Source of the DNA: Symbiodinium sp. CCMP2592
Taxonomy: Eukaryota > Sar > Dinophyceae > Suessiales > Symbiodiniaceae
NCBI GenBank assembly: GCA_905221615.1
Contig: CAJNDT010000598.1
Coordinates: 62,001 to 126,000 of the forward strand
Direction of reading: 5' to 3'
Length of the DNA: 64,000 nt
Position 1 is the stretch's first letter. Each line of letters begins with the position of its first letter. Of the stretch, positions 5,691-34,852 are shown one piece after another. The notes under the pieces are model-generated. The model ran no database searches. It saw only the letters and a program-made list of their open reading frames with translations, and had not been told where the DNA came from. A program made the translations under genes and the position numbers.

Positions 5691-5693
5691 GTG

Positions 5694-6555: not shown

Positions 6556-6559
6556 CGAA

Positions 6560-7508: not shown

Positions 7509-8309
7509 ATGTTGGTGGGCAACTACACCAACACCCTTGTGCACACCGGCTTCGAGTTCCCGACTTACAGCCGCCACGGCTCCAGCAAGAAGCTGTTCGC
7601 ATGTGTGGATGACGAACATGTGACGCTCAGAGTGGCAGTGTTTGATCACCAGGGGCACTTGAAGGACACCATTCCCACAGGACACGAACACTTGGTCGTT
7701 GTCCGGCTCTTCTTGACCCCGGAAGAGCTGCAGCTGCTGATGGATAGCGTCCCGAAGTGGGATATGGCCGGTGCCATTCCGTGCACCACAAAATCGAACA
7801 TGAGCGAGATCGACCTCTTGGTTTGCAATAAGGACCTGGAAACCGACGCCAAAGCCAAAAGCATGGTGGGTGCCGTTAAGGATGCTTTCCGAAATGGTGC
7901 TCTCGGCTGGATGAGCTGCTTAGCCAACATCAAGAACATGTTGGCCAAGGTGTATCCGGAGCAAAACGTCTACGCCAATCGTGGCTACACCACGAACATG
8001 CACTGGATCGTCGGCCCCAATGCCGTCTTCCTGAGAATCATGATGGCTATGATGGAGCTGACGGAGATGGATGCCGTCCCCATTAGGGACCACTGGCTCG
8101 ACCACTTCGAGATGGAGGCCCACGAGATGGCCGATAATGCCATGGCCATCCCCGAGAGCCAGTACTTGGGCGACAGTTGGGACCTGCTCAAAGCAATGAT
8201 GCCGACTTACTTGGCGGAGCACATCAATAGCAATGCCTTGTATAACCTCAAGCACCTTGGACCGAGGCGGTGTGCGATGCATTCCACAGCATGGATGGCG
8301 GCAGCATGA
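7509..8309 (+). CDS. Orphan single-frame ORF, 266 aa
   Basis: I do not recognise this protein. It is one uninterrupted frame from ATG 7509 (the first ATG) to TGA 8307. The product is mixed-polarity and globular-looking, without a signal peptide or clear transmembrane span. It has a hydrophobic beta-like start (LVVVRLFLTPEEL), a Met-rich helix at codons about 175-190 (FLRIMMAMMELTEM) and a His/Glu-rich stretch (DHWLDHFEMEAHEMAD). The length and the lack of low complexity suggest real coding sequence, and no intron or frameshift is needed. The 3' flank to 8.5 kb has no obvious poly(A) relic. It could be a host gene, a retrocopied gene or an element ORF; the neighbours do not help. Confidence 0.55.
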   Translation: MLVGNYTNTLVHTGFEFPTYSRHGSSKKLFACVDDEHVTLRVAVFDHQGHLKDTIPTGHEHLVVVRLFLTPEELQLLMDSVPKWDMAGAIPCTTKSNMSEIDLLVCNKDLETDAKAKSMVGAVKDAFRNGALGWMSCLANIKNMLAKVYPEQNVYANRGYTTNMHWIVGPNAVFLRIMMAMMELTEMDAVPIRDHWLDHFEMEAHEMADNAMAIPESQYLGDSWDLLKAMMPTYLAEHINSNALYNLKHLGPRRCAMHSTAWMAAA

Positions 8310-9056
8310 TGGAAGGGATGGCCTTCGATGAGCCATTCGCCATGATTAACATGGATGCGATGTCAAGGAACACTAGCAGATGAGCCGTTTCAGGTTTAGT
8401 CTGCCTCTTTCAGTGGTTCGGCACGCGTGGATGTGTAAACGCTGTCACTGCACATGGATGCGTGTTTGAACGGGCGCGGCGATTTTTGAATTCTGTTGTG
8501 TGGGGCGTAGCTTGAAGTTGGCCTCTCCCGTTCTTTGGAGGAATATGCTCAGGCTAGATATAATATAGTTTCGCAGGTGTCAGCTGTGACTGCATGTCTG
8601 AGTGGAGTCTGCTAGAAGCAACACTCAGGAGCCTTGAAGTGTTGGTGCGCTTGCAAACTGCAAACGTCCTTGTTTCGCCACGGCACTTATGTTTGCCACA
8701 CCGCGCTAAATAGCCCAATGTCGTAGCTTGCTTGTTGCCTGCGGGATTGCACTTCGGTTTGTGTGTTCCCGTTTTCCCGTCGTTTACGAAGCAGCGCGGA
8801 GTCACAATGACCACGCTGAGAGAAGTAGTAAGTTTGGTTTTGTGGCAGGATGTGACGTAACCGCTTACGGTTTTTTACGTAGCTGCTGTGCAGCTGGCCG
8901 GGTCTACAGCGGTCCGCCTTCCCTGCCTAAACCCTGATGTGCCAGATTTCTGCTCGGCTTGTGTCAAACATCAGCTAGTGCATACTGGCAGTCAGTGGTT
9001 TCGTTTGCAAGTTAATTAGGCAGCGAACTCCTCTGAATGCTTGGAAATGGAAATGG

Positions 9057-9060
<4 letters not shown>

Positions 9061-9095
<35 letters not shown>
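9061..9095. repeat. (AT)n microsatellite
   Basis: A5 followed by about 15 AT units. Confidence 0.95.
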
Positions 9096-9096
<1 letters not shown>

Positions 9097-9167
9097 GAAG
9101 CCTCAAGGACGGACCACGAGGGTTGCAGCCCGCCATCCTTTCAGTGCTGGGGTTTGGGGCGAAGGAA

Positions 9168-9213
9168 TTAGGGTTTAGGATTGTGGGTTAGGGTTTGGGA
9201 TCAATGCTCAGGG
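9168..9213 (+). repeat. Degenerate telomere-like TTTAGGG stretch
   Basis: TTAGGGTTTAGG, then GGGTTAGGGTTTGGG and CAGGGTTT, lie in tandem with interruptions. TTTAGGG is the telomere unit known in dinoflagellates and plants; this short degenerate array is interstitial. Confidence 0.6.
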
Positions 9214-10498
9214 TTTCTCATTGAGGAATCCAAATCCCAGCCCCCTAAGAATGAATATTGAATATCCTCTCAGTATATCATGCTATTATGAGGAGATTAC
9301 CCATGCAACAGAAACTCAGGCTGTAGCCCTTGATCTTCATATTGGCTTTCTCTACACTAACCCTCCTATACCTCATGCAGTCCCCTGCTTTCCTCTTATA
9401 CTTGTAAAAGATGATGTAAGGGTATAGTAGAAAGAAAAGGGGAAACGAGCACCCATTAATAATTGGCAGTGGAATTACAGGCAAGCCACCCCATCTGCAA
9501 CACTCTGTGCCAGGGCTTCTAAAGCGGATGGGAGTTCAGCAGGTGGTTCAGTCCCAGGCACGACTTGCCAAGGCAATTATGAGAGGGGAGTTTGGGGGCC
9601 CGGACATGTTGCTGTATTACGTTTGCAAACATTCTCTTCCATCCGCATGCTGCTGTTCCACTGCCTGATGATCATAACATCAGATCGGGATCCCTAGAAC
9701 TTGGAAACGCCCAAGCTCCTTCTGAGCTGGAACGCAAGAGACCTCATATCTGAGCCTGCAATCTGCCCCCATCATATCAATATTCTTGAGATGGCATCTG
9801 AAGCTGATTCGGTTCCCCTACTTTTTAGCCGCCTTCTTCTTTGGCGCCTGGGACTGAGGAGGCTTTTCCTCCTGCGTTTGCTTCCTCCTTTGGGCGCGGC
9901 TGCTTGGCTGTGCTTGGCCTTGAGCGTGATCAGGGTCCTACACAGGGAATCATGGTACATTTTGCAACACAGTCTTGTGAAAACGCTGAGTTGCAAGGGC
10001 TTACATGGAAGCAACACGGCCGGTTTTGTGACGGCACTGCGTGAACTTCAGTCCACCACTTGATTTTGTGTTTTTAACGCTTTTCTTGTCTCACTCTTTG
10101 TGCCCTCTATAGTGGGCGTTTCCTCACTCCGTTTTTTTTGTAAGCCCCGATGTTTCATCCTTGTCAAGGTTTGTTTGACTTTTCGGTTCCCTCCGTTTTT
10201 GCATTGCTCTTTCCACATCCTGGCTTCATCTGGCTTCTTCAACTCTATGGGAATTGGCCATATGGCACATGTGAAGCAGACCTTTCAAGTTAGTTTCAAG
10301 GCACGGGTGCAATGTTGCGTTCCTGCATTTGCCGAAGTGGTGGTCTTCTTGTTTGCTTCGTCCTGTAGAAAGCAGGGGCATCGCAGCCTGAAGTGCTTGG
10401 CATGATTCGCGGCATGATTGTTGCCGATTGACAAGCTGTTGGCTTTCGTGCTGGCATCTCTGCATTTTGCTGTTGCGTCCCTCGCTAGAGTTGTCATC

Positions 10499-11221
10499 AT
10501 GGACGCTGCACTCAATGGAGCAGTTGACAAAGCCGTCAACGTGTTCATGGACCTGGACCTGGTCCCCACGGTGGTCAGCGCAGACATGTTGCACAGCCAC
10601 TGTCGCGAGCTCATCTCCGATGTTCTTGAATGGGAACATCAGAAGTACGTCCAGGACAAGGTCCAAGTGGAGGGCAATGACGTGCAACTGCTACGAGTCC
10701 AGGTCCATGGCGCGTGGGTCAAGGTCTCAGACGCCGGCAACCTTCCCGAAGGAGCCGACGAGTCAACCCTGGTTGACTTGAGAGCTTGCCTGGGCACAAC
10801 GCGACCGCTGCACTACGCGCAGACCGCCCTGAACGGCATCCTCATGTCCTTGCCACTTGTTCTGCAAGCCCGTACTGACTGGTACGCGGCACATTTTATC
10901 CATGAGCGATGGCTCTTGGATAATGCATCCCGCCGTGAGGATGAGCAGGTGAACCGAGAATTTTGGGACTTGGATCGCAATGAGATGCTGAAGGACGTGA
11001 GCATTTCTTTATTCGTTCGCGATGCTGTTCTCAGCAGATGTCCGTTCCTCCCCGATCCCACACGGGAGGCCCTCGAGCACGGAGGGTTTGTTCTCAAAGA
11101 GGACCTTGATTTGTTGGCTTTCGACCCACGGTGGGATGCGTACGGAGTTGAGAACCTGTACAGTCTAGTTCCAGCCCCGTTCCTAGACGTCCGGAAGATC
11201 GTCCGGGACCGGGAGGGCTGA
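10499..11221 (+). CDS. Orphan single-frame ORF, 240 aa
   Basis: I do not recognise this protein. The chosen start is ATG 10499, whose product begins MDAALNGAVDKAVNVFMDL; the frame is open upstream to 10418 with an ATG-less hydrophobic leader. The product is acidic, rich in Leu, Asp and Arg, and probably mostly helical. It contains FWDLDRNEMLKDVSISLFVR and LPDPTREALEHGGFVLKEDL. There is no signal peptide in the short form and no low-complexity sequence. Like the ORF at 7.5 kb it is intronless and undamaged, unlike most coding relics in the window, so it is a fair candidate for a real gene. The function is unknown. Confidence 0.55.
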   Translation: MDAALNGAVDKAVNVFMDLDLVPTVVSADMLHSHCRELISDVLEWEHQKYVQDKVQVEGNDVQLLRVQVHGAWVKVSDAGNLPEGADESTLVDLRACLGTTRPLHYAQTALNGILMSLPLVLQARTDWYAAHFIHERWLLDNASRREDEQVNREFWDLDRNEMLKDVSISLFVRDAVLSRCPFLPDPTREALEHGGFVLKEDLDLLAFDPRWDAYGVENLYSLVPAPFLDVRKIVRDREG

Positions 11222-15829
<4,608 letters not shown>

Positions 15830-21136: not shown

Positions 21137-23082
21137 GTGATCAAGATGAAGCTCAATGCATGGAGCAAGCTGCCTTTGCATCTTTGTGGCCTTGGTCTGC
21201 CGCAGACCCAACCCGAGGCGATTCAAGAAGTTGCCCGAGACTGCCTGCAACAGTATGCTGCCCAACCGGATGCCGAGCACAGAGTCTCCAACTTTTTCTG
21301 TGCGCCAGGCAGCCCGCTTTACGACAGTTTGGTCTCAGTGGCCAATGGGGCACCGCTGCAACAACATATGGAACTACACAGATCTGTGCAAATTTTGAAA
21401 CTCATCCCAGTTGCAGAGCACGTTATCGAGGGAGGGTCCGCATGCAAGCACGCAGCGGCAGATCGTCAGGGCTCCACGTTGCGGGCCAGTTGCTGTGAGC
21501 ATGGCATTGCGAGGCCCAGAGATTGAGCGCTTCGTGGTGGAGGGCCCTGTGTGGTCTGGGATGGTGCTTGCAGAGACTGTGGATTTGGTCTCCAGTTTGC
21601 CCAGAGCCTTGCCACGTTTAGGTCTTCAAGCGCATCCTGCTATTGCAGCCGCCGAAGCAGCAGGGAAGCTGACCACTGGTTTCGTTTGCAGCATTATCTA
21701 CAGGTGTGATGCTGAGTCGCAGCTCGTGAACTTGCGAGGAGCCCGGAAGGCCGCTGAGGTGAGCAAGGACAAGCAGAAGAAGCAACGAGCCGAGAATGAT
21801 CACAAACGTGACAAACAGGCCGCAGAGCGAAAACTTGCTCCAGAGGAGAGGGCCGACTGGTTCTTTCAATGCTTGCTCTTTGACTGTCTACGGACGCAGG
21901 AAGACACTGAGGCCTCCGTGTTCTCTTTGCCGGCGTCTGTCACGAGTCAGCCGTTGGCGCACGGGGAGGCCCAGCAGCTGTGCGACAAGGAAGGGCGTGT
22001 CCAGCTGCCGGACATGAACCTGCCCTCCAAAGCCTATAGACAGTGTTATCGCTGTGGGTGCGGGGAGTGCAGGTGTTGCAAGGTCTAAGGCCCCGGAAGC
22101 TTTTCTGCAAATCGAAGATGATCTTGGAGATGTGAGTGCAGATCCCGATGGATTCAGTGCCCTGCCAAGCTGCGGGCACGCCGGTGCTTCAGAGGATTCT
22201 GGCCTACATGGCTTCTTCCGCGTTGTGCACGCGAACCCTTCGAGGCAGAAAATTCAACATGTTTCGCCTGCCCTTGGTCAGAAGTTGAGGGACAGCGACA
22301 TGGCTGTAACCCGGCACAAGTGCCTGCATGTTGATGAAAGCCGTGCCAAGATAGAAGCTGCGCCTCTATCGACAGCAAGGTCAAGCTCAGCTGATGCACA
22401 GTCTGCAACTACAACCTTCTTGTTGAACACTTCCGTGCCGATGGGCTCGCGCCAGGAACTTGCCGAGCAATTGCTCAGATGGGAGTTTGATGCAGAGTGT
22501 GAACATGCTCTTTCCGGGGTTTGCCCACGTTTGCTTGACGTGTTTCCAGACCTCGGCGCATTCGAAGGTCGTGCGGCGAAGTATGTGCCCGAGGAGGACG
22601 ATGAAGACACCGATACGCTCAATCGTCTTCTTCGGGAGGGTGTTCTTCGTGCGGAACAGGTTCGAGAAGATGTGCGTGGGTTTCAGCTGACGCAGCAAGG
22701 CATGTGTGAGCTGAAGTTGGTGTTCAAGCTGCGGAGCCCTCGGCCAGTCTGTCTTGTGCCAGACATCGAACGCAGGCAATGGGACGCTCCGTCCCTTGGA
22801 GATTTGCATCCGTGTCAACTCTGGTTGCTTATGGAGACGAAGGGTTGGCAGCCGCTCGTGGCGACCACGAAGGAGCAGGCCGGTGAACCAGCCTATGCGT
22901 TGGACGCAGATGTCAGGAAAGTGTTTTTCTTACCAGTCAGGGGCACTTCGCCCCCGTCCCGTTGGTACATGCTGGCTTATGCTCTATCGGATTTGGTTTG
23001 GAGACAACGGCTTGCTCCATCTGTGCTTCCCGTGGAGCATAGCTGGCAAGTAAAGCAATACCGTGGCCTGGTCGAATGGTAG
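21137..23082 (+). pseudogene. Transposase-like gene, C-terminal segments
   Basis: Three joined frames are seen. At 21137-21430, NAWSKLPLHLCGLGL leads to LIPVAEHVIEGG. After a frame change near 21440 the message continues with GPVAVSMALRGPEIERF and VCSIIYRCDAESQLVNLRGA, followed by a Lys/Glu-rich helix (codons around 21750-21850). After a second frame change near 22080 the frame is open to TAG 23080, with HGFFRVVHANPSRQKIQHV and, near the end, LWLLMETKGWQPL and RWYMLAYALSDLVW. The order matches the dinoflagellate family mentioned for the previous two entries. The last 340 codons are intact. Whether the breaks are introns or frameshifts cannot be settled without transcripts. Confidence 0.5.
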
Positions 23083-23342
23083 TTGTGTTTACTCAACATT
23101 GTTTACACTTTAGCTATCCCGCTTTTGCGTTGAGCTTGGTGATATTTCTTCATGCTTCAGCCACTTTGCTCAGCAGACGCTTCCAACATGCAGCAGCTGA
23201 CATGTTGAAGAACATTTTTCACAGCCTGACAGCTTTGCTTTACATTTAGCACTTGTCGGATTTGCTTGCACATTCCGTTTTCACAGTGACTCCTTTCTAG
23301 GTGAGTGTAGGCTGTGCAGTCCGGTTCCGTGCGGGCCGGCAG

Positions 23343-23777
23343 ATGGACAGTGAGTTCCCTCCGGGGCACTCAATCGAAGAGGCAGTGGAGCTGCTTCGTG
23401 TCGCAGCCTTCCGTTTTCATTGTCTTGAGACTCGCTTAGAGACATTGGAAAATTTTGTGTCGGAGTTCCGCTCCGTCCAGGAAAGGATCAACACTATTGC
23501 ACTTCGTTTAGATTCTCTTGAGCGCGATCTGGCTGTGGTTCAACAGGCTTTCACCAGCCCTCAGGGTGTCAGCCTGCGAGCTGAACTTGAGGGCATCTCC
23601 TTGTCGTTGTCTTCAGTCATTGAGGTTGTGAATCGGCTTGAGCCTGAGACAACTCGCATCTTGCATTGGAGAGAGCGCTTTACAGGATCGCTTCAGGAAG
23701 AGCTGTCTCGCATAGGCCACCAATTTAGCCTTTCTTGCCCTCGCTTGGACGTTACATTTCTTGATGAGCTCGACTAG
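23343..23777 (+). CDS. Small coiled-coil ORF, 144 aa, 5' of recombinase
   Basis: Begins at ATG 23343 (MDSEFPPGHS) and ends TAG 23777. The product is a heptad-rich helix (LETRLETLENFVSEFRSV, RINTIALRLDSLERDL) with no zinc motif or membrane span. Its end overlaps the ATG of the next frame (23764) by 14 bases, an arrangement compatible with coupled or frameshifted expression of one element. It may be a structural (gag-like) protein or a multimerisation domain of the retroelement. I do not recognise a named family. Confidence 0.5.
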   Translation: MDSEFPPGHSIEEAVELLRVAAFRFHCLETRLETLENFVSEFRSVQERINTIALRLDSLERDLAVVQQAFTSPQGVSLRAELEGISLSLSSVIEVVNRLEPETTRILHWRERFTGSLQEELSRIGHQFSLSCPRLDVTFLDELD

Positions 23778-25253
23778 ACTTCTTCAGCAAGGCAACATGC
23801 TTAGCGGTCAGAGCGCTTCTTCGGCGGCGAGCAGTGTGCCCGTGGTTGCGGACACAGGCACCGTGACGCCAGGTGACAGCAGTACTTTTGTGCCTCCTAC
23901 CGCTCCGGTCTCAGCAGGGTTTCTTGCACATTTGGATTCTCTGATTGATTCTCCTGCGGAAGCGGCTGATGAGCAGTCGCAGGCATCAGATTTGCTTACG
24001 TCTTCTCCTGAGAAATCTGCTTCAGCTGCAAGCTGGGAACTCATTGCCCCAGGTGGTCATCTGCCCGCTTCTGCGGGCCCGAGGGTTTGCACGGTCAAGC
24101 GTTATCGTAAGCAAGTTTTGCCTGTTCAGGATTCACCTGTTGTGCCGCTGGAGCCAGTCCCATTGCTTTTGCAGGCCTCGCCTAAGGCATTGGTTTCCCG
24201 CTCTCGATCTCGCCCGCGGGATCCGGTCTGCCATGAATCACCCGTTGCAGCTTCGAGCCTTTCTCCTAGTCAAGATGATCATAGGACTAGGCTTGGGTTG
24301 GGTTCTAGGTCCTCCCTAGGCCCCTTTAAACCTTTGCCGGCCCCAGCTCCATTGCACCGTTCGGGGCTCTCCACTTCAGGTGCATTGCCGGTACAGGATT
24401 TAGCTCCACCGCTGCCTAGACCTAAGCACCGGGCGGCCTTTTATTGCAAGCACAATCGTTCACCTCGGCCTGCGCCGGAGCCACACATGCTGTTGCAAGC
24501 AGGGGTTAAATCAGTGCCTCCAGGGGTCCCCCAAGGTGTGCCTTCGTCTGCTTATGCAGGGCCCAGACCATGTCCTCGGCAGGCTACTTCTCAACAGGTT
24601 CGTCCGGGCCTCACCTTGCAACAGTCTTTGCATCAGGAGCAGTTCGCTCGTGTCTTGCTGATTTGGGTGTTGGTGCGGCCCCTGGTGCTTTCCTTCTCGC
24701 CCATCCTGCAAGATCTTGCTTCGAGTGTTAATGCCCCGGAGCTGGAGCTGGGCTTGCTCCGCACGGTGACCGAGACGACAGCCTTACGGTACTTGCAGGT
24801 GGTACATAAGTTTCTTCAGCAGCTGCACACTCTCTGGCAGCTCACCTGGGATACGGCATCGCAGTCTGCTGTTGTTGATTGCATCCTGTCTTTGCGCAGG
24901 GATCATCAGGATTGTCACCGCATCAACTGTGTCAAGGCCTTACGCTGGATTACAAAGCTGCTTCGTCTGCAGGTGGATAATCTTTATGACGGCCTTTTCC
25001 GTCCGCTGGTTGCTGTATCGATACACGATCCGTTCGATACCATACGTGGCGACGACTCTTGTTATAGCGACGTCCGCTGTATAGTGAACTCGTAATTTAT
25101 CTATGTCCGCACTTGCTTGTTGTTGCACACCCTGAAAATTAGGGGTTGCTCGTGGGGGCTTCGTGTTGCTTCTGTTCTGCAACAGAGTTAATATATATAT
25201 ATATATATATAGGTGTATATATATGTGTATATTAACTCTGTTGCAGAACAGAC

Positions 25254-25290
<37 letters not shown>

Positions 25291-26421
25291 TCAGCAGGTC
25301 TGCCTCGGATAAACTGCGACGTGAGTCGTACCCGCTCCCATGGCGTCTGGTGAGCTTCTTTGAGCATGCCCTCATGTTTCGCACATTGCCGTTGCAGGCT
25401 CTCTTACTTGCTGGTGCAGCGCTTGTGTGTGTCTACGCTTCACTCAGATGGAGTGATTCTCAGCATCTGCGCTGGGATACATTGCTCTTCAGTGCCTCTT
25501 GTTTGTGAGCATTGATTTTCAGAACCAAGACGTCACGAGCCGGCATGCCAATCGCTTTGCAGATTTCGGGGGTGCTTGGGCGTGACACAGGGGTTATGCA
25601 GACATGGCTGGCGCACTACCTGGCTATTCTTTCAGATGTTTGGGTTGAAATGCGTCTGTCCTTCGGGGATTCTGTTTGCCCGGATTGCTTATGGTTCTCT
25701 TGGGATAAGTCTTCGGAACAATTTGCACCCTTGACTTATGCTCAAAGCCTTCGGTTCTTGCGTGAATCGGCAGTGCAGTGTGGCCTGACAGAAGGTCTCG
25801 TGCAGTCGGCTTCCTTGACGCTTCACTCTCTGAAAGTTTGCTTGCTCAGTGCTATGTTGATGCTGCGCCTCAGCCGTAGGGCCAGGTGAAGCGCTGGCAG
25901 CTCAATCGGTGGTGCTCTGCAAGGTTCAGTCAGGCTGGCTTCCTCTTGCGCCAATGGCCAGGGGGTGGCAGATACCCATTCAACAGTTGCCGTTGATTCA
26001 GGTGGAGGCAGAGATTCCGCACGCCCCTTCTGCGTCGTGATTCCCACTGATGCCCGATTTCAGCCTTGCTTCTGCTGTGCAGGAACCGCCTAGTCTTGAA
26101 CCGAGTTCGGATTTGCAGGTGGTTCACTCTTCATCTTCAATGGAGCCCACTCCTGGGGCAACCACAGCCGCTGTGCAGGCTGAAGATGATCTTGCATCCT
26201 CCTCTTCCGGGGATGAGTCACTGGGCCAGGCCGAAGAGACAGTCTTCTTGCGTGCCAAGTCAGGGATTGTTCATGTGGCAGCCCCAGCTTTGTCGGGTAC
26301 TGGCGTCTGTCATGATTCGGTGTGGCTGAAGCCCATGTGTGGCATGCTTTCTGCTGATATCCCACCTACCTGCCAATGTTCGCATTTGCAAGCACAAGGC
26401 GTGCCAGGGATTGCTCAATAA
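23764..26421 (+). pseudogene. Tyrosine recombinase (YR) of retroelement, inactivated
   Basis: Codons 1-290 are low-complexity and rich in Ser, Pro and Ala. They lead into a helical SAM-like N-domain (about 24640-25000: TETTALRYLQVVHKFLQQLH, then CVKALRWITKLLRLQVDNLY). An insertion of roughly 280 bases follows. The catalytic domain resumes at 25308 with ESYPLPWRLVSFFE, YASLRWSDSQHLRWDTL (first Arg), IFRTKTSRAGMPI (Lys strand) and SASLTLHSLKVCLLS (H-x-x-K in place of H-x-x-R). TGA at 25506 and TGA at 26038 interrupt it; both would be CGA before one C-to-T change. After 25870 a frame change leads directly to VVLCKVQSGW, so the segment expected to carry the catalytic Tyr is missing. The tail (26050-26421) includes FLRAKSGIVHVAAP and a Cys/His cluster. 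YR-class identity is inferred from motif order. Confidence 0.6.
25173..25250. repeat. Inverted repeat with TA-rich loop
   Basis: Arms of 23 bases are exact reverse complements: TGTTCTGCAACAGAGTTAAT plus ATA on the left, and its complement ending TTGCAGAACA on the right. They enclose TA-rich sequence. A further (TA)n run follows to about 25288. The hairpin lies inside the insertion that splits the recombinase. Confidence 0.9.
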
Positions 26422-27034
26422 GTGCGCTTGGTGCCTTATCGAGCGTGTATCGCGCTGCAGCGATGCCGGTCTTTGCTTCTGTGGCCTTTTGTCAGCTCTG
26501 CAAGTAGCTGAATTTTTGTATCGCACAAGATGCTTCATGCACAAGAGAAAAGAGGGATTAAGTCCTTGATCGTGCAAGAGTAAGAGGGTCTTGCATACAG
26601 CCGTTGCAATTGCTGTGGCCGCATCGCGAAGTTTTTCGGCTGCTGCACGCTGTACGCTGAGGGCTTAGGTCGGTGTGATGGCTGTCTCGACCACTTTTGC
26701 ATCTTTCGCAGGCCCGCTTATACAGCCGTGCATGAGCGATACAAGTAGCATTGCTTTGGCGCTGCATCGCAGCCTGCAGTCCTATTTGGAGGGGTGTGGC
26801 CCTGGCTACAACCCCGGCCGGTTTTGGCGTCTTAGCTCTGCCGCGCCTCGTGTGTTATTGTGTTTGCAGCTCCCGGGACCCCTCTGTCGCGCCTTTTCTA
26901 TGGCTGTTGGGGCATCTTATGCTCCTTGATACTGTTGCTTGCGGGTTTGCTGCGGCCTTGTTGGGGTTTTTGCTGCTTATGCTCCGGCCTGAGCAGGTGA
27001 TGCACTTGCAGACGCGCCCGCTTCGCCTACAACC
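26422..27034. other. Spacer between recombinase and gag-like ORF
   Basis: In another frame, 26339-26450 gives HLPANVRICKHKACQGLLNK, a Cys/His tail that probably belongs to the end of the recombinase polyprotein after a frameshift. The rest (to 27034) has open frames without recognisable motifs. No long direct or inverted repeat was found here by eye. Confidence 0.4.
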
Positions 27035-28210
27035 ATGGCATCACTCCTTGAGTCACATGAAGTCCCTGGGGTTCTGCATCATCACTTTGCAGAGTTCACG
27101 CCGGAGGTCTTTGCAAATGTGGCCACGGATGCTGCCAGCTTGGAGCGCTTTTTGACTAGCCTGACTGAGAACACAGGCGCTGACCAGTTCGTGGTCGAGG
27201 CTCGCATCCGCATGTTGTGGAAGGATTGTGTGGCGCTTCAGGGTGATATCTCAAAGAAGCTGCCGGTTGCTGCGGCGGCGGCGGAATCGAAGCCGGACAC
27301 CTGGGCGGACCCTTTTCCGGCAAAATTGAGTTCTGCTATCTGGAAGGGCCTTCACGAGGACCTTTTGGCGGCATACCCATCTGAACTGCACCCTGATGAG
27401 ACCCCGGGTGCCAGGCTGATGGCATTGACTTATCGGGGTGTGTCGGAGCGATCTTTGAAATGGCCACAAAGGAAGTTCAGGCTGTCGGTGTCTCAGGAGC
27501 AAGCTCATCAACTCACACGCCCAGCTAAGCTGCCTCGCTTGGAAAACCTGCTCTTTGATGAGGTACCGTCTAAGGAGGTGCCCAATGTGTTGCAGTACGG
27601 CTATGTGGCAGGCATACTTAACATGCACGCCACGTCACTGGCCCTTTGCAAGGCCGCGCATCTTTCGGTGCTCAAGAGGTACGTCCAGTCCTTCCTGAAA
27701 CTTTGTTTTCCTCAGCTTGAGTCCGGCTTTCGCGGCCCCAGCGTCGCAGAGGCTATTCAAGCCGACGAGAAAGCGTGGCAAGCCATCAATGACCTTTATG
27801 CTCATCATGACTGGGAGCTGGGGGACGCCGTGGCCGAGATCATCGATGTTCGGATGATTCTCCATGCTTATCTGCAGCCGCGCCTGGCTGCGGTGACACC
27901 GAATCCCCCTGGGGTTCCGCAGCCGCATGGTGGCAACGGTAGGCGTCCTTACACAGGTGGCCGCGGCCGCGGTAGAGGCAGAGGCTTCATGGGCAAAGCA
28001 TTTGGCAAGGGCAAACAAGCGTCATCGTCCCGTGCGGATTCCGTCAAGATCTCGGGACAAGTGGTCGTCATTTGCAGAGATTACAATACTAAGGAGGGCT
28101 GCAAACGCGCAGAATGCCAATTTTCCCATGTTTGCAATGTTCCTCGTGCGGATGGTGTTGCGTGCGGTGGCAAGCACTCTGCTGTGAATCATCGATCCAA
28201 CCCTCATTGA
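27035..28210 (+). CDS. Gag-like ORF with CCCH zinc finger, 391 aa
   Basis: Intact from ATG 27035 to TGA 28208. Residues 1-290 are mostly helical and acidic. Residues about 300-330 are Gly/Arg-rich (an RGRGRGRGF stretch), a typical RNA-binding tail. A zinc knuckle follows: C347-x8-C356-x4-C361-x3-H365, then C367, C377, H381 and H386. CCCH fingers with an RG tail bind single-stranded RNA, so a nucleocapsid or RNA-packaging role for the element is the simplest reading. It stands between the recombinase and the dioxygenase/methyltransferase ORF, in a different frame from the latter (stop at 28210, next frame open from 28291). It is the least damaged ORF of the element. Confidence 0.65.
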   Translation: MASLLESHEVPGVLHHHFAEFTPEVFANVATDAASLERFLTSLTENTGADQFVVEARIRMLWKDCVALQGDISKKLPVAAAAAESKPDTWADPFPAKLSSAIWKGLHEDLLAAYPSELHPDETPGARLMALTYRGVSERSLKWPQRKFRLSVSQEQAHQLTRPAKLPRLENLLFDEVPSKEVPNVLQYGYVAGILNMHATSLALCKAAHLSVLKRYVQSFLKLCFPQLESGFRGPSVAEAIQADEKAWQAINDLYAHHDWELGDAVAEIIDVRMILHAYLQPRLAAVTPNPPGVPQPHGGNGRRPYTGGRGRGRGRGFMGKAFGKGKQASSSRADSVKISGQVVVICRDYNTKEGCKRAECQFSHVCNVPRADGVACGGKHSAVNHRSNPH

Positions 28211-28290
28211 GGGGGCCCGGCTCAGGTTCTAGCGCCGGCCTGCGCGGGCAGTGAAACCCATGAGGTGCCGCTCACGGGCATTCTGGAGGT

Positions 28291-29250
28291 GTGGCATCAA
28301 CCGCCGACAATGTGGCGGAGGCTGCCTCTGCTGCATCCTCCTCAGCAGCTACTCCCATGGTCGTGGACACCCCAGCATCCAATGTGCCAGATTACGATGG
28401 CTGTGCTGAGCACCTGCGCAAGCATTTTCATTTTTCCAGGAAGAGCGTTCGCCCTGATGTGGTTGGGGCGAGTGCCGGCTATTTTAATCTGGGGGCCATG
28501 TTCGGCTCCGGCAAGGTGGGCCTCACGCACTTGACTCAGGCATTCAAGCTCAGCTGCGTTTTCTTGAATCAATTTCTGCTTTCATGCTTCCCTCAAGGGG
28601 AATGGACATCAATCTGCACTGCACGTTCAGTTCAGACGCAAGTTCACTCTGAGTCCGGGACTTTACCGCATTCCCTGAACTTTTCTGTTAGTGTCGGCCC
28701 GTTCACGGGCGGTGAGCTCTGGGTGGCGGGCTCAGGCTCGGTGCCTATGCGTGACAGGTTTGGCAGGATCAGGTATGGTCATACGGTGTGTACACGACAC
28801 ACACCAGTGCAATTTCCCTGTGATGTGGAACATGCTACCATGCCGTGGCAGGGGGGCCCACGGTGGGCTCTGACGGCATATTCGGTTCCCGGCCTTGAGG
28901 TTATGTCTGAGGCGGCTCGTCAGCAACTTCTTGATTTGGGGTTCCCGTTGCCAGGGACTCGGCAGGCCGCTTCTGAGGCACCGTCGGTGCCGCACCAAGC
29001 CCAGGTGCCTGCGCTCCCGCTGCCCCCTGCAATGCCACAGACTGCTCAATCCATTTTCTTGGAAATCTGCTCGGGGGCTGCGGCCCCGTTGTCGTGTGCT
29101 GTGTGTGCTCAGGGCATTTCCTGCCTTCCAATAGACTCCATCCGTGAGCCGCTGGATCATGATTTGCTGGACGATGCGTGTTTTGATCGCCTTATGCTCA
29201 TTGCGAGGGGACGGTGGACCACGCCCCATCCGTTCAGCGGAGTACCCTGA
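28291..29250 (+). pseudogene. 2OG-Fe(II)-dioxygenase-like domain plus methyltransferase N-part
   Basis: The frame is open from 28291; the first ATG is at 28357, so it may be expressed by frameshift from the gag-like ORF. Numbering from 28291, residues 110-205 look like a double-stranded beta-helix dioxygenase core. They show H119-x-E121 (H-x-D/E iron ligand pair), LNFSVSVGPFTGGELWV (129-145), H181 followed by MPWQGGPRW with R191 (distal His and 2-oxoglutarate-binding Arg), then LTAYSV. This spacing is like that of TET/JBP and related DNA- or RNA-modifying oxygenases. After a Pro/Gln linker comes FLEICSGAAAPLSCAV (256-271), the AdoMet-binding motif I of C5-cytosine methyltransferases, then PIDS (280-283). 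The frame ends at 29250 through a frameshift. No search was run; the domain names are inference from motif spacing. Confidence 0.5.
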
Positions 29251-29770
29251 AGGTCTGCCGAACTTGTCTGATGCGGAGATGAGTCGATTGGAGTCTAGCA
29301 AACGGCTGCTCACGCGCACCATTTCTTTGCTTGATGCTGTCTTTGCCGCAGGAGGCCACGTCTCTCTTGAGCAACCCCGAAACTCATTGAGCTGGTTGTG
29401 TCCCGAAGTTCAGGAGTTCCTGAAGCGCACCTCTGCCGACCTCAACATTGTGTCCGCTTGTTCGGTGGGTGTTTCTATTCACAAGTACTGGCTTTTTGCA
29501 TCGTCCTGGCGTCCATTGCAGGATCTCGCTGCTTTGTGCCCGCATGGCAAAAATGAACATCAGGACATTCGTGGGTTGCGTGATGCTGAGGGCAATTGGT
29601 TGTCTCAGAGCACGGCCGCCTTTCCGGAGCAGCTGTGTAAACGCTTTGCCTCGGCCATTCTGCCGGTCTTTGGGGAGGTGCATGCAGGCCGCTTGCTCAG
29701 CCTTGCTGAGGTCATGGGCATGATCCAGCCCAAGTCTCATACCGCGTTGCCCAGGGCAAACCAAGACGGG
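29200..29770 (+). pseudogene. DNA-methyltransferase-like C-part, motif IV lost
   Basis: Continues the previous entry in another frame: LRGDGGPRPIRSAEYPEGLP, LSDAEMSRLESSKRLLTRT, HVSLEQPRNSLSWL (an ENV/EQP-like strand), ACSVGVSIHKYWLFASSW and CPHGKNEHQDIRGLRD followed by FPEQLCKRFA. These blocks match the C-terminal half of a methyltransferase-like domain found beside RT in dinoflagellate retroelements, as I recall it. Between 'LMLIA' (about 29205) and 'LRGDGGP' (about 29208) there is no room for the Pro-Cys catalytic loop expected there, so a short deletion seems to have removed motif IV and shifted the frame. The copy should be catalytically dead. The intact parent element could be active. 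Confidence 0.5.
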
Positions 29771-30771
29771 GTGGGATCTTCTCCTTACCCGATTGGTCGG
29801 CTCCGCCGCCAGGTCAGCAGGATAAGTTACAGGGCCTCCGTGCTAAGTGGTCTGATTGGCTGGCTGCTAAGCACATCCCCCTTCGTTTGCGTCAACATGT
29901 GCAGGCTGGCTCAGAGGAACCGTTGTTCTCCTCGTCGGAGATTGAGGAGCTGCACTCTCTCGCTTCCGAGTGGTTCGTAGAGCAGGGGAAGAACGCCATT
30001 TTGCTACGAGGCCCAAGCCGGGCAAGCCAATTAGGTGCAGAGATTAAGAGGTCGGGTGCTGCTACTTCAGTGGTTTCCGAGAAAAAGCGACTGGCTTCGA
30101 GCATTGCCTTTTCCCTCAGAAGATCAAGATCCTTGCAGCTTCAAATTGTCACGGACATCTTGTCGTGTGCTTTGCATACACTGGTGGGTATGGAGGAGCC
30201 GGAGCTTTCAACACAATGCGGGACTGTTGGATCACGGAAAAGGATAATCAGCTTGTACGCAACGCTTAAGCCCGACTGCCATGACGCATGTTCTCAAACC
30301 ACTGCCAAAATGGCGACTGAAAGCGAGATTGAGGTTTTCGGTCGTCAGCTTGTTGAGCAGGCCAAGCTGGCGGCTGAAAGCAAGGTTGAGGCCTTTGGTC
30401 GCCAGATTGTTGAGCAGGCCGAGGCAGAGCTTCACAACATGCGTACGCTTCTGGACGAGCGAGCTGCGACCATCAAGAAGTTGGAGGCTAAGCTGTCCCA
30501 CACTGAGCCAAGCACGTCAGCCCAAGATGTGAGACCCCTTGTCAATGATCAACAGGTTTTGATTGCGCAAACTGCCAAAAGGCAGCGATTGACTGGGAAA
30601 GACACACAGAACGCCGACCTTCAGCAGCTACAATCCTCGGGCCACGTGTACATCAGACCTGCCGTTGACTTAGAAACCTTGAGAAGGCGACATCATGATG
30701 AACGACTTGCACAGAAGGCAGCACGTAGGCTTGCAAGGCAAAATTCAGAACCCAAAGGACCTGGTGTATAG
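29761..30771 (+). CDS. Linker ORF with coiled coil, upstream of RT
   Basis: Open from 29761 (IFSLPDWSAPP) to TAG 30769. It starts with a conserved-looking helix (AKWSDWLAAKHIPLRLRQHV, SEIEELHSLASEWF). Then come a basic stretch, a long heptad region at about 30315-30500 (FGRQLVEQAKLAAESKVEAF, with a 57-base, 19-residue internal duplication) and a Lys/Arg-rich end. It has no stop but needs a frame change to join the RT at 30846. It is probably the polyprotein segment between methyltransferase and RT, or a multimerisation domain. Confidence 0.45.
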   Translation, partial: PRRGGIFSLPDWSAPPPGQQDKLQGLRAKWSDWLAAKHIPLRLRQHVQAGSEEPLFSSSEIEELHSLASEWFVEQGKNAILLRGPSRASQLGAEIKRSGAATSVVSEKKRLASSIAFSLRRSRSLQLQIVTDILSCALHTLVGMEEPELSTQCGTVGSRKRIISLYATLKPDCHDACSQTTAKMATESEIEVFGRQLVEQAKLAAESKVEAFGRQIVEQAEAELHNMRTLLDERAATIKKLEAKLSHTEPSTSAQDVRPLVNDQQVLIAQTAKRQRLTGKDTQNADLQQLQSSGHVYIRPAVDLETLRRRHHDERLAQKAARRLARQNSEPKGPGV

Positions 30772-30845
30772 ATCGGCCTTTTCTCGTACAAGTTTCTTTT
30801 TGTGAGTCCTGTCAAGGATAGGAGCTTAGTAATGCGCCTGCAGAA

Positions 30846-31841
30846 GTGGGTGAACATGAACGGCTTGTCGTCGTGAGAGTCAGCTCGTCTCCTCTCCTTG
30901 CTTTGAAGAAGCTGGGGAAAGGGGGCTGTTGCTGTAACCGGGCTGCTGGACAACGAGGCCTGCTGCAAAAGGGGATTTCTTCGGTTTCGTGGATTATTCC
31001 GGAGTTCCAACCTTACGCCTTGGAGGCCCTGCAACAGCTGGCTGGGTTTCTTTCTGACCCAGATGTGGCATTATGGCCTAGCCGAATGCAAGGGGTGCCT
31101 ACCGGTATAGACGGTAATATCCCAAAATCTCATGTGTTTGTCCCGGTACACCAAGGCGAAAACCCGTCGGTTCCCGACCTTCACATTTGTCAGGGCAATT
31201 GGCAGCAGGCCGAGGCTCAGCCGGATCTCCTCAAGGAGTTAGTGCTCAAGGAAGCCTCGGAGGGGTACATCTTTTCCATGCCAAGCCTAGAGGCAGCGCG
31301 TGAACGTTGGGGCGAGCGGGTAGCAATTGGCAAATGCAACATCGTCGGCTTGGAATCGGAGCAGAAGAAGCCTAGGCTGATAGTAGACACCACGGTTTCA
31401 GGGACAAACCCCTCGGTCTCCATACCGGAAAAGTATTCACTTCCTGGGATCCAGGACGTCATCAACTCCCTGCCGCTCAGGGGTAGCACAGAGGAGCTAG
31501 CTGGCTTCTCCCTCGACATCCGGTCAGCTCATAAGACTGTCAGGGTGCGCCCTGACGAACAAGGTTTGCTGGGCTTCGAGGCCGACAACCGCCTGTGGTT
31601 CTATCGTGCCGCCCCCTTCGGGGGGTGCTTCAGTGCACATTGGTTTCAAAGGGTGTCTTCGTTCCTGGTAAGGGTTTTTCACTTATTGCCTTGGGTACAA
31701 CACGCCCTTTGGGCGTACGTTGATGACTATTTCATAGTCCAGCCCCGCTGTGTGATTGAGCTTTGCTCCAGCCTGCTGCTGGCGTTCTGCGCTACCTTCG
31801 GCATTCCGATTCCGTGGAGTAAATTACAGTTGGGGAGTACG
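30846..31841 (+). pseudogene. Reverse transcriptase of YR retroelement, 5' part
   Basis: The frame from 30846 includes the pre-RT motif GVPTGIDGNIPKSHVF, then RT motifs. FSLDIRSAHKTV is motif A (Asp at residue 224). FYRAAPFGGCFSAHWF is motif B. AYVDDYF is motif C (Asp 293 and 294). IPWSKLQLGST starts the primer-grip region. The sequence is typical of the RT-RNase H family of YR-type (DIRS/Ngaro-like) retroelements as represented in dinoflagellates. All catalytic residues of the polymerase are kept. The frame is cut at 31841 by the inserted DNA transposon; the message resumes in register at 33137 once the element and one copy of the 8-bp duplication are ignored. Confidence 0.8.
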
Positions 31842-31909
31842 TTAGGGGTTTCCTCTAACAAGAACTCTTTATGGTATCTCGGGCATACAAACCAACATTG
31901 AAAACCAGC

Positions 31910-32015
31910 AAATCAACAGTAGATTTGGTGTTGGTTTGTGGGCTTGAAAACGACAAATCAACAGTAAATTTGGTGTTGGTTTGTGGGCTTGAAAACGACA
32001 AATCAACAGCTGATT
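31910..32015. repeat. 45-bp direct repeats at left end of the inserted element
   Basis: 'aaatcaacagtaaatttggt' plus 25 bases recur with a 45-base period (starts near 31911, 31956 and 32001). Confidence 0.85.
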
Positions 32016-32263
32016 TGTGGGCCCGGAGAACCACCCCAAATTGCCTGGGAGTACAAATCAACAGTTATTTCCGGGCTACAAATCAACAGCAAATCCCGGG
32101 ATTTGCTGTTGATTTGTGGGTCCGGAGAACCACCCCAAATTATCTGGGAGCTACAAATCAACAGTAAATTCCGGGCTACAAATCAACAGCAAAATCAGGA
32201 ATTTGGTGTTGGTTTGTGGGCCCGGAGAAGCTTTCGGGGGGTCCGGGAGGGGGTCCCGGGAGG

Positions 32264-32653
32264 GGTTCTCCGGGCCCACAAATCAACACGGAATTCCGGA
32301 ATTTGGTGTTGGTTTGTGGGCCAGAAATTAGTGTTGGTTTGTAGTTTCCTAATGAAGAGCTACAAACCAACAGTAAATTTCGGGCCCACAAACCAACACC
32401 AAATTCTGGAATTTGGTGTTGGTTTGTGGGCCCGGAGAAGCTTTCGGGGGGTCCGGGGGGGGGGTCCCGGGAGGGGTTCTCCGGGCCCACAAACCAACAC
32501 CAAATTCCGGAATTTGGTGTTGGTTTGTGGGCCCGAAATTTACTGTTGGTTTGTAGCTCTTCATTAGGAAACTACAAATCAACACTAAATTTCGGGCCCA
32601 CAAACCAACACCAAATTCCGGAATTCCGTGTTGGTTTGTGGGCCCGGAGAACC
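32264..32653. repeat. 390-bp near-perfect palindrome
   Basis: Centre at 32458/32459, with arms of about 195 bases. Matching blocks sit at mirror positions: GGTTCTCCGGGCCCAC at 32264 against its complement ending 32653, and a 37-base block at 32345-32381 that is exactly complementary to the end of the right arm near 32572. A perfect 54-base palindrome (32482-32535) is nested in the right arm. Such a structure can form a large cruciform or snap-back RNA hairpin. Confidence 0.85.
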
Positions 32654-32867
32654 ACCCCAAATGGCACTCAAATTGCCTGGGAGCTACAAATCAACAGTAA
32701 ATTCCGGGCTACAAATCAACAGCAAATCCCGGGATTTGCTGTTGATTTGTGGGTCCGGAGAACCACCCCAAATTATCTGGGAGCTACAAATCAACAGTAA
32801 ATTCCGGGCTACAAATCAACAGCAAATCCCGGGATTTGCTGTTGATTTGTGGGCCCGGAGAAACCAG

Positions 32868-33045
32868 TTTGTGGCTTTCATAGCCACGAATTCGCTGTTG
32901 ATTTGTGGTCTTCAGCCACAGATTCGCTGTTGATTTGTGGCTTTCATAGCCACGAATTCGCTGTTGATTTGTGGCTTTCATAGCCACAAATCGCTTTTGA
33001 TTTGTGGCTTTTATAGCCACAGATTAGCTGTTGATTTGTAGCGCC
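32868..33045. repeat. Hairpin-unit tandem array at right end of the inserted element
   Basis: Four to five units of about 35 bases, each with 'GTGGCTTTCATAGCCAC' (itself a short palindrome) followed by 'GCTGTTGATTT'. Confidence 0.85.
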
Positions 33046-33128
33046 GCCACCTCATTCTTGCTACCATTCTGAATGGACTGAATCAGCCTAAAGAACCCAT
33101 GCTATTTGCTGTTAGAAGCAACCCCTAA

Positions 33129-34265
33129 GGAGTACGATTAGGTGGTGCGGTTGGTTGTATAACTTGCGTGCACAAACGTTCAGCGTCCCACAAGAAAAGC
33201 TCTCCAAGTTGCTCACAGCGTGTGTGGAGGTTCTCGAGCATCGTCAGACTTCCAGAAAAGCCCTGGAGTCCCTCATCGGACTTTTGCACTGGCTATTGCA
33301 CATCGCCCCAGGTCTTAAGCCTTGGCTCTCAGTTCTTTATCAAGACTTAGCACGTCCCCTAGGAACAAGCTTTAGTATAAATCCAGGCATTTGGCAGTCA
33401 CTGGCTGATACCTTGAGTGATTCCTTGTATTTTGTGAAGAGCCCGCCCAACTCGGGCATTCCGGTTGGGGCGAAGCTTCTCTCGGCTAAGCATGTGGAAC
33501 TTCATAAAAAGAGTGATCTTCGTCTGGTTCAGCCCTCTGGCAGGCGTCTGTGGCTTCGCGTAGCCGATCCCCGGACTGAGAAACGTGTCTTGAGCTCGGC
33601 TAGCAGGGAGTTTGCTCTGTTGGGCGATTGGCACGCCCCGTATGCGCCCCTTGCGGCCGCTTCCGACGGCCACTCCGGTCTCCATCGCGGCGGATGCCAT
33701 GGCTTCAGGGAATAGCATAGGCATAGGTGGGTTTGCACTGTTGCATGCGTCAGGCCCTCTTTTGTGGTACGCTGAAACCTTCGAGGCTTCGAGGTGCAAG
33801 ACTTTCTTGATCTGGGTCTGAAGAGGCAGGCTCAGGCTCAGCGTGATATCACTTCATATGAGACGTTAGCTCAGCACGCTTTGCTTATGCTTGTCTCCAC
33901 TGCGCTGCCGGCGGGGCGCTTGGCTGTAAACTTGCCTACTCTCAGCGACAACACAGGCTCGGAGTCGTCGGTGAACAAACTCTTCTCTACCCTGTACCCA
34001 GTGTGTATGTTTTTGCAGCGCATTGCCTCTTTGAGCGCACTGACAGGCATACAACTTGAGGTTGCACACATCCCGGGTGTTGCAAATGATGACGCCGACA
34101 TGCTATCTCGCTGGGACGGCACATCGCAATTATTCGCAATTGCCATCAAAGTGGCAAATGCAGCATCGCATTCGCTTGCCACTTGAGCGCTTGTGGTATT
34201 TCAGGACTGATGTCCGAGTTTGGCCAGAGGGTGCTCCATTGCTGTGGCAGCCGCCAGTGTCTTGA
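33129..34265 (+). pseudogene. RT thumb and RNase H of YR retroelement, 3' part
   Basis: After the inserted transposon the frame resumes with IRWCGWLYNLRAQTFSVPQ and LESLIGLLHWL (RT thumb). RNase H motifs follow across frame changes near 33640, 33790 and 34130: AADAMASGNSIGIGGF (first Asp), SYETLAQHALLML (Glu), LSDNTGSESS (Asp) and HIPGVANDDADMLSRWDG (final Asp). The D-E-D-D set is complete in sequence but lies in three frames. The last piece, IRLPLERLWYFRTDVRVWP, ends at TGA 34265. No recombinase follows downstream, which supports the placement of YR at the 5' side of this element. Confidence 0.7.
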
Positions 34266-34290
34266 GCTTCCTCTCGCAGTGAAATCCCGC

Positions 34291-34433
34291 GCCTGTTGGG
34301 CAGTACCGCTGGCGGCGCGCGGTCGCACGGCTTCCCCCGTTGGTGTGGGCTGTCCAGTAGCACAGGTCTCCTGTCGGGCAGTACCGCCAGCGGTGCGCGG
34401 TCGCTGTGCTTCCCCCGTCGGTGAGGGCTGTCC
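34291..34433. repeat. 78-bp tandem duplication
   Basis: GGGCAGTACCGC...GGTCGC...CTTCCCCCGT occurs at 34298 and 34376 with a 78-base period and about 85% identity. It lies directly behind the RNase H end. Confidence 0.85.
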
Positions 34434-34642
34434 TTTGTAACGGGCTCCGATGCGGGTGCTGAGGGCTTTGCTGCCCCAGGCCTCTGAGTGCTGTAGTTTC
34501 AGTGCTGTGAGCTCGAGCGTAGGCCCCCTGAAGTTCCTTAGCTTGCTTGCGTAATCTAATCTAGCTGCGGCTTTGAGCTCCGGTGCTTTCGTCGACCCAA
34601 CACGTTTTAGCTTTGGCCGAATTACCGTTGGTGCGTTAGGCC

Positions 34643-34751
34643 TCCTTCATTTGGTACGTGGCAGCTTTATACTTGGCGACTTTGGTATCGTAACCAGATT
34701 GCTAAAGACCTCTTCGCATCTGCTTTCGACCGCCACGTACAAAATGAAGGA
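34643..34751. repeat. Inverted repeat 3' of retroelement
   Basis: TCCTTCATTTGGTACGTGGC at 34643-34662 pairs with 34732-34751 at 19 of 20 positions, with a 69-base loop. It could be a 3'-end structure or a terminal repeat of the retroelement. Confidence 0.85.
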
Positions 34752-34852
34752 GTCCCCGACTGAAGACTGCGTTAGTGTGAGCTTGCGAACTTAGTTTCTA
34801 GTACTGCTAGCGTAGTGGCTGTAGCGAATAGTGTGAACCGGATGGAACAACT

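Follow-up and report, generated by a model that had tools for sequence, protein, structure and literature searches.

A decayed tyrosine-recombinase retrotransposon in Symbiodinium belongs to a family with recurrent recombinase-first order and candidate oxygenase and methyltransferase domains

When a tyrosine recombinase (YR) lies ahead of gag and of a reverse transcriptase (RT) in a dinoflagellate genome, do the three belong to one mobile element, or have two unrelated elements come to rest side by side? The question is raised by a locus of Symbiodinium sp. CCMP2592 (assembly GCA_905221615.1, contig CAJNDT010000598.1, here C598, positions 62,001 to 126,000 of the forward strand; these 64,000 nucleotides are the window, and window coordinates count from its first letter). 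An earlier sequence-only reading had found there, in a single run, a coiled coil, a YR, a gag-like open reading frame (ORF) with a CCCH zinc finger, dioxygenase-like and methyltransferase-like domains, a coiled-coil linker, RT and RNase H, and had proposed, should this order recur elsewhere, a distinct clade of retroelements. Our best explanation, to which we assign a probability of roughly 0.7, is that the window holds an old, inactivated copy of a YR-first retrotransposon, of a family that would integrate through a circle and may modify its own complementary DNA (cDNA).

The genome searched was the 1.098-Gb assembly to which C598 belongs. We searched the stop-to-stop frames of the window that reach at least 25 aa, at E < 0.01, with hidden Markov models built from copies elsewhere in that genome (the ORFs agree with those listed for the sequence-only reading), and the family profiles match the window in one collinear run, 23716-34262 on the forward strand, in the order YR, gag, 2-oxoglutarate (2OG)-Fe(II) oxygenase, methyltransferase, RT and RNase H. 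Profiles of relatives thus confirm, at closely similar positions and well beyond chance, that the named parts lie on one strand in one run. Every YR-profile match falls 5' of gag, as had been read, and none follows RNase H at E < 0.01; the whole-genome YR search independently matched the window at 25317-25841 (E 1e-40).

The same order recurs elsewhere. We scored the best 113 of 1892 candidate places in an RT search of the genome and the best 134 of 1127 in a YR search queried with the YR domain of copy C4904, and from their coordinates paired each scored RT place with the nearest listed YR within 12 kb. At 57 of the 113 RT places this YR lies upstream on the same strand, at a tight spacing of 4910-8499 bp (median 5782); the window copy, at 5781, is one of them. 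The only listed YR is downstream at two places, and none is on the opposite strand (0/113). One of these two downstream cases, C489:80546, has a YR that lies upstream of the adjacent RT copy C489:70100 as well, and in the other, on C2258, the sole listed YR is 11.4 kb away. Ten copies were fetched with 20 kb of surroundings, read for ORFs and compared with themselves for repeats; in eight the order is YR-gag-pol, and in C5180m and C3212a other elements have cut away the 5' part.

Self-comparison also indicates where the element ends. Six of the ten copies (C4904, C2902, C4989b, C4989a, C657 and C1668), 9.8-10.7 kb long, carry split direct repeats in the layout A1-[YR-gag-pol]-B1A2-B2, with A1 at the left, then the ORFs, B1 directly abutting A2, a spacer of 137-360 bp, and B2. 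The A repeats (102-144 nt) are 99.2-100% identical and the B repeats (156-317 nt) 98.9-100%, and because they enclose YR, gag and pol we place the YR inside the element. In the six, B ends GAAC (AAAC in C4989a) and A begins G(N5)TGTGYTNNCTCA, C3212a having one base more; the junction is conserved as ...(G/A)AAC|G(N5)TGTGYTNNCTCA, and a C-rich run follows A2 in all six. Copies with a recombinase 3' of RNase H, or with none linked to this RT, were what the sequence-only reading had expected of two merely adjacent elements, and the comparison supports a single element instead: 57 upstream against 2 downstream and 0 opposite, with the YR enclosed by repeats in 6/10 copies. From their sequences, then, intact members are organized as A1, ORF1 (YR), a small ORF in some, gag (CCCH), pol (oxygenase, methyltransferase, RT, RNase H), B1 A2 and B2, and the window element is supported as one of a YR retrotransposon family with recurrent YR-first order. 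C5124 and C3212a have B pairs only, and neither C4334 nor the window-family copy of C5180m has repeats. In C5124 (reverse strand, L017, joined coordinates) a 174-nt direct-repeat pair at about 1982-2610 (1982-2155 = 2431-2604) resembles the B pair of an upstream element; that it ends close to the start of the C5124 element suggests insertion beside an existing B end.

The YR assignment rests on motifs shared by 8/8 aligned YR ORFs (SLR, HS.K, GHH and Y.R.D, for R, HxxK/R, H and Y) together with similarity at the profile level (2e-21) to a neighbouring element's YR, itself matched by Pfam Phage_integrase (2.3e-4). Of the one pol scanned, the RT half gives RVT_1 as its sole Pfam match, and no integrase family (DDE) appears up to E 5 in nine proteins scanned with Pfam. 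RNase H motifs (ADA, E.L.Q, DN, AD.LSRW) are conserved in seven copies. The RT profile was likewise built on seven copies, C4334 being left out because its pol frame continues into another element.

Ahead of RT, pol carries the two additional domains. A search with the C4904 oxygenase domain gave 4134 first-look candidates, of which the best 150 were scored; 86/150 lie in open frames of at least 1000 aa. We aligned 20 copies (12 of 20 fetched loci, the other eight omitted as near-duplicates, together with the window copy and seven drawn from the ten full ones): the first H is invariant and D, the second H, R and W are nearly so, which gives an iron triad HxD...H with a downstream R, the window copy reading HSE. 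In a set of 19 sequences, 17 pairs at 60-98.5% identity were compared by the Nei-Gojobori method; four had saturated synonymous divergence (dS) and no ratio, and the 13/13 pairs with finite dS, which share sequences, give nonsynonymous to synonymous ratios (dN/dS) of 0.04-0.18, evidence at the sequence level for purifying selection on the domain. Pfam on the 20 members returned Tet_JBP, the only recurrent match, in 6/20 (best 0.0059, below cut-off), 2OG-FeII_Oxy_3 in one and four other families once each. Searched against the whole genome with the best 150 places scored, Tet_JBP gave 30 matches at E <=0.01 (best 2.2e-4), and none in 14 control genomes. The adjoining domain models as a DNMT3-like fold, of C5 type, and is a plausible DNA-methylation writer because the DNMT3-like domains of SymbioDIRS-Dnmt3, a published Symbiodinium element, methylate CpG in yeast (PMC5890265). 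A third protein search added mainly methyltransferase parts.

In all eight of the Tet_JBP loci that were opened, one and the same frame matches the profiles of both domains, at 9e-23 to 3e-26 for the oxygenase and at 2e-12 to 4e-14 for the methyltransferase. On contig C485 (L057, 41501-51500), positions 2304-9758 hold YR, gag and pol (oxygenase-methyltransferase-RT-RNase H), with YR first again; pol is a single 1283-aa frame, its RT matches RVT_1 weakly (0.0048) and its YR matches the family profile at 9e-10. By sequence this is a second, diverged family with the same ORF layout. A third layout stands on C5180m (reverse strand, L009 then L010, joined coordinates), where 2777-9702 carries YR, gag and methyltransferase-RT-RNase H with no oxygenase-profile match and a B-type repeat pair (8874-9087 = 9489-9702); a truncated RT copy of the window's family starts directly behind it, at 9703.

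A number of results weigh against this reading. No YR was listed within 12 kb of 54 of the 113 RT places; the figure is inflated because the YR list, the best 134 of 1127, is biased to one subfamily, and C657, one of the 54, has a YR ORF upstream on reading. Pfam found no family in the three YR ORFs of the window's family that were scanned. Distances among six copies correlate between gag and RT (r 0.94), gag and 2OG (0.64) and 2OG and RT (0.59), values reached by 4, 15 and 22 of 720 permutations; YR distances correlate with none of these three (r -0.15 to 0.12), and we reject a correlation of YR with the other parts. In C4989b the YR is closest to that of C4989a (46%), and gag and RT to those of C4904 (62% and 71%). 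Since YR distances do not track the remaining element, the YR behaves as a swappable module, and it seems to have been exchanged between subfamilies while keeping its place, with gag, 2OG and RT travelling together. For the methyltransferase, Pfam DNA_methylase gives no match, and Foldseek alone gives no match in the PDB below 1e-3 (best 6.1e-03; the VIA ranking re-aligns only Foldseek's first 1000). Tet_JBP nowhere exceeds its curated cut-off of 34.9 bits in the genome, its best score being 30.1 bits (E 3.3e-07, C485/L057), and we therefore call the oxygenase TET/JBP-like and not a TET/JBP member. PDB sequence searches with the 2OG and methyltransferase profiles gave rows at E 0.2 or worse only, and the AlphaFold2 (AF2) model of the window oxygenase, from a six-row alignment, has a mean confidence (pLDDT) of just 36.9, so its fold is taken from sequence. 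By reading, the methyltransferase is decayed in C4334, C5124 and C657, of which only C657 keeps the oxygenase; because some subfamilies have lost or decayed either one, neither is strictly required. Among the loci omitted from the alignment, L042 (C5378:137029-137745) carries R where the first iron-binding H would stand, within a 2108-aa open frame, and its oxygenase is possibly inactive. Catalytic activity of both domains is a prediction. The window copy itself lacks the GHH...Y stretch (profile 607-631), hence the YR tyrosine, lacks the region of the catalytic PPC motif of the methyltransferase (profile 56-80), and has lost its intact frames to frameshifts in YR, pol and RNase H; on its sequence it is an old, inactivated copy, broken in YR, methyltransferase and pol.

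How does this family compare with known YR retroelements? VIPER/TATE elements have gag first and the YR between gag and RT, and we know of no C5 methyltransferase or oxygenase in them; gag-YR-pol is a different cyclic order from that found here, where YR precedes gag, and the family is not VIPER-like. In PAT-like and DIRS1-like elements an adenine (Dam-like) methyltransferase is positioned after RNase H, whereas here it is C5/DNMT3-like and stands before RT, and the repeats are direct, whereas those of DIRS1 are inverted. Nor is this Ngaro, with its order gag-RT-RH-YR and no methyltransferase, given a YR at the front and a C5-methyltransferase-like domain. The kinetoplastid VIPER/TATE elements are nonetheless like the present family in having YR ahead of RT and split direct repeats (PMC6681497). 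Ngaro and PAT-like elements, as far as the available text of their descriptions extends, share YR, RT-RNase H, split direct repeats A1...B1A2-B2 and, in Pat1, a Gag zinc finger; their YR sits after RT-RNase H, the nematode-form Pat1 and Kangaroo have internal repeats between methyltransferase and YR, and no oxygenase is mentioned there (PMC4157794, PMC6681497, PMC8547959). The methyltransferase of PAT is adenine-type, as the text consulted of PMC5890265 says of DIRS elements, and is absent in Ngaro. For TET/JBP-type oxygenases on mobile elements the available text of Kojima 2025 (PMC12730594) describes fungal DNA transposons and Helitrons, with no retrotransposon carrying a TET/JBP gene. An orchid Ty3/Gypsy retrotransposon does carry a 2OG-Fe(II) oxygenase; that one is an AlkBH5-type RNA demethylase in a long terminal repeat element, with no methyltransferase mentioned in the text seen (PMC9289625). 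No earlier report was found of a retrotransposon Pol fusing a methylation writer with a TET/JBP-like oxygenase, in a literature search outside which fell most subscription papers and all supplements. As far as searched, what is new is the fusion of oxygenase to methyltransferase, the conservation of the oxygenase, and their presence in two diverged families.

The mechanism that we propose for intact members is as follows. Pol would copy the element RNA, the split repeats would allow the cDNA to close into a circle in which the B-A junction could serve as recombination site, and the YR would insert the circle at that junction. The Pol-tethered methyltransferase might add 5-methylcytosine (5mC) at CpG to the nascent cDNA and the Pol-tethered oxygenase might oxidise 5mC or thymine in it, so that the cDNA would then resemble host DNA or, by an altered mark, escape silencing. 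The oxidiser could yield 5-hydroxymethylcytosine from the writer's 5mC or 5-hydroxymethyluracil from thymine, or could act on RNA, as the AlkB of the orchid Gypsy does; to call it an eraser, as the sequence-only reading had, is a guess. YR-gag-pol and gag-pol-YR are one cyclic order, and therefore a shift of the junction from behind to before the YR, a circular permutation, could yield the YR-first layout with no reordering of genes. The layout with its enclosing split repeats suggests a way in which a YR retroelement may relocate its recombination junction and exchange YR modules.

Several other explanations must be set beside this one. Had a Crypton-like recombinase transposon merely landed upstream of an RT retroelement that lost its own YR, the independent divergence of YR would be expected, the window copy alone could not separate the two cases, and the excess of YR places (best 134 of 1127) over the 57 linked ones among the best 113 of 1892 RT places would also fit; near-identical repeats enclosing all ORFs in six of the ten fetched copies, an order and spacing fixed in 57 copies, and a second family with the same ORF layout make that very improbable, and we largely reject adjacency of unrelated elements. 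A more serious contender is that the element is the published SymbioDIRS-Dnmt3, in one of two layouts with integrase and Pol order swapped, only a missed domain being new. Those elements, described in 2018 from a Symbiodinium host, likewise have the YR in its own ORF and A-coding-B-A-B repeats, and carry in the same Pol ORF as RT-RNase H a DNMT3-like domain, to which the methyltransferase here is similar in modelled fold; the available text reports YR-Pol order shuffled between two types (PMC5890265). The claimed novelty of the gene order accordingly survives at most in part: YR-first does differ from Ngaro, PAT and VIPER, and YR/Pol reshuffling is already in print. Yet the main text of that paper has no 2OG, TET or hydroxymethyl term, and its DNMTs were counted with Pfam DNA_methylase (PF00145), the model that misses the methyltransferase here. 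We put identity with SymbioDIRS-Dnmt3 a little short of even odds.

The chemistry proposed for the YR-first family admits two further doubts. The 2OG domain might act on RNA and shield the element's transcript, with no modification of DNA; it adjoins RT and gag, both RNA-handling, and the orchid Gypsy, in the text consulted, offers a functional 2OG demethylase of AlkB type, acting on N6-methyladenosine, in a retrotransposon (PMC9289625). The recurrent Pfam match is to Tet_JBP, no AlkB family being listed in scans up to E 5 or 1, and the domain is fused to a DNA C5-methyltransferase fold, which makes action on RNA unlikely in our judgement. Less likely again is that both domains are structural relics whose catalysis is dispensable and which serve to help Pol fold or bind nucleic acid. 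The subfamilies in which they are decayed or lost, the missing first iron ligand of L042, and the HSE and absent PPC of the window copy would suit relics; the retention of iron and 2OG ligands across nearly all aligned subfamilies and dN/dS of 0.04-0.18 would not, and HxE is the norm in one fungal TET class, according to the part of PMC12730594 available.

The YR-first family is of interest mainly because it offers concrete, testable candidate enzymes for dinoflagellate DNA modification, with an oxygenase under purifying selection. Among the bases of dinoflagellate DNA is 5-hydroxymethyluracil; in Breviolum minutum certain repeats are enriched in it, Maverick elements most strongly, which does not point to the YR-first family in particular; the text consulted names no enzyme for making it (PMC11071213). 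It is a long shot, though a consequential one, that the retroelement oxygenases (at least 150 places) are the missing dinoflagellate thymine/5mC hydroxylases, placing 5-hydroxymethyluracil in the cDNA and, with time, in the repeat-rich genome as well, in company with the fused DNMT3-like writer; if so, the unusual base of dinoflagellate DNA would be a product of dinoflagellate retrotransposons.

The window copy is longer than the span 23343-34265 first given to it, since an A1-type start and a B-type end can be placed outside that span (Table 1). Positions 23074-23095 match the A-start pattern with a single mismatch, which sets the left end; the 3.2 matches expected by chance refer to a tolerance of up to three mismatches, not of one. 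Only the start of A1 is supported, the remainder aligning weakly to other A1 repeats. An A2-B2 end in this copy was considered and rejected: aligned to the 3' region, A1 reached a score of 29, in the range of shuffles (mean 27.5, maximum 37), and gave no matching A2. The single B found fits recombination between B1 and B2, by inference. Three insertions interrupt the copy (a microsatellite stretch that splits YR, some 970 bp within the RT region, and a repeat array before RNase H), and the coiled-coil linker must be dropped as an element component: relatives run straight through, and it falls in the second of these insertions. The ORF of the N-terminal coiled coil is present; for the coiled coil itself there are just weak matches in Pfam (E 0.05-0.31). 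Ten window ORFs scanned against Pfam returned RVT_1, a CCCH finger and weak coiled-coil-type matches; ten other window proteins gave nothing convincing against Pfam, and neither NCBIfam on five proteins nor Rfam and tRNA scans of the window gave anything informative. Viral contigs scanned with the methyltransferase alignment and RT held no relatives.

Table 1. Parts of the degenerate YR-first copy in the window (YR, tyrosine recombinase; RT, reverse transcriptase; RH, RNase H)
Feature	Position	Strand	Basis and remarks
Whole element	23078..34838	+	11,761 bp, with three later insertions counted in; bounded by an A1-type start and a B-type end; degenerate
A1-type left end	23078..23200 (right limit approximate)	+	GGTAGTTGTGTTTACTCA...; begins G(N5)TGTGYTNNCTCA, a pattern shared with the six full-repeat copies
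ORF, possible coiled coil at head of ORF1	23301..23777	+	Outside the family YR profile; weak Pfam only
ORF1 N-terminal S/P/R-rich part and core-binding domain of tyrosine recombinase	23716..25092	+	YR profile 78-415, E 2e-37
AT-microsatellite-containing insertion splitting the YR frame	25093..25300 (approximate)	.	YR profile stops at 415, restarts at 416
YR catalytic domain	25257..25886	+	SLRWSD arginine region, TKTS strand, LHSLK motif; pieces 25257-25505 (1e-21), 25509-25886 (2e-40); one in-frame stop at about 25506
ORF1 C-terminal part: GW.P...ARG region and Cys-rich tail, frameshifted	25861..26566	+	YR profile 631-669, 718-785, 784-809; pieces 25861-26037 (1e-8), 26041-26418 (4e-11), 26330-26566 (0.007)
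Gag-like ORF	26993..28207	+	Gag profile E 3e-105; CCCH zinc finger near end, residues 360-379 (weak Pfam zf-CCCH_2, 0.028)
2OG-Fe(II) oxygenase-like domain (TET/JBP-like), start of pol	28351..28974	+	HSE...H with R, where the other aligned members have HxD; profile and alignments; profile against frame 28264-29247 E 8e-68 with the window's own row included, 3e-56 rebuilt without that row, 1e-49 also without nearest relative
C5-cytosine methyltransferase-like domain, two frames	29041..29698	+	Methyltransferase profile: part of 28264-29247 (7e-15) and 29135-29977 (6e-73)
RT region start, QDG.G..S.PDW linker	29770..29991	+	RT profile 3-76, E 4e-22 (within frame 29710-30768)
Foreign insertion with 'coiled-coil linker' and 57-nt tandem duplication	29988..30959 (approximate)	.	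AGGGG on both sides
Reverse transcriptase with YVDD	30963..31844	+	RT profile 72-363, E 3e-122 (frame 30822-31898); Pfam RVT_1 8e-06, below its cut-off
Tandem/palindromic repeat array between RT and RNase H	31845..33127 (approximate)	.	About 1.28 kb inserted
Connection and RNase H, frameshifted, ends ...LLWQPPVS stop	33128..34262	+	RT-RH profile 360-733, four pieces: 33116-33712 (5e-61), 33594-33818 (3e-12), 33776-34183 (1e-41), 34044-34262 (2e-12)
B-type right end, finishing ...GTGTGAAC	34720..34838	+	Against B1 of C3212a: score 55, shuffle maximum 40; 34280-34843 against tail and B1 of C3212a, the nearest relative: score 252, against at most 39 for 50 shuffles

The array between RT and RNase H is built of nested tandem and palindromic units with periods of about 45, 100, 212 and 34. 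Elsewhere in the assembly, a 1637-aa pol frame in C4334 (L013 then L014, joined coordinates, 8975-13885) passes through RNase H into a polyprotein that by eye is Copia-type-like, probably another element inserted in frame. Outside the element, the window's only profile match at E < 0.01 is an isolated methyltransferase-profile match at 1767-2090 on the forward strand (E 2e-8), probably the remnant of another copy.

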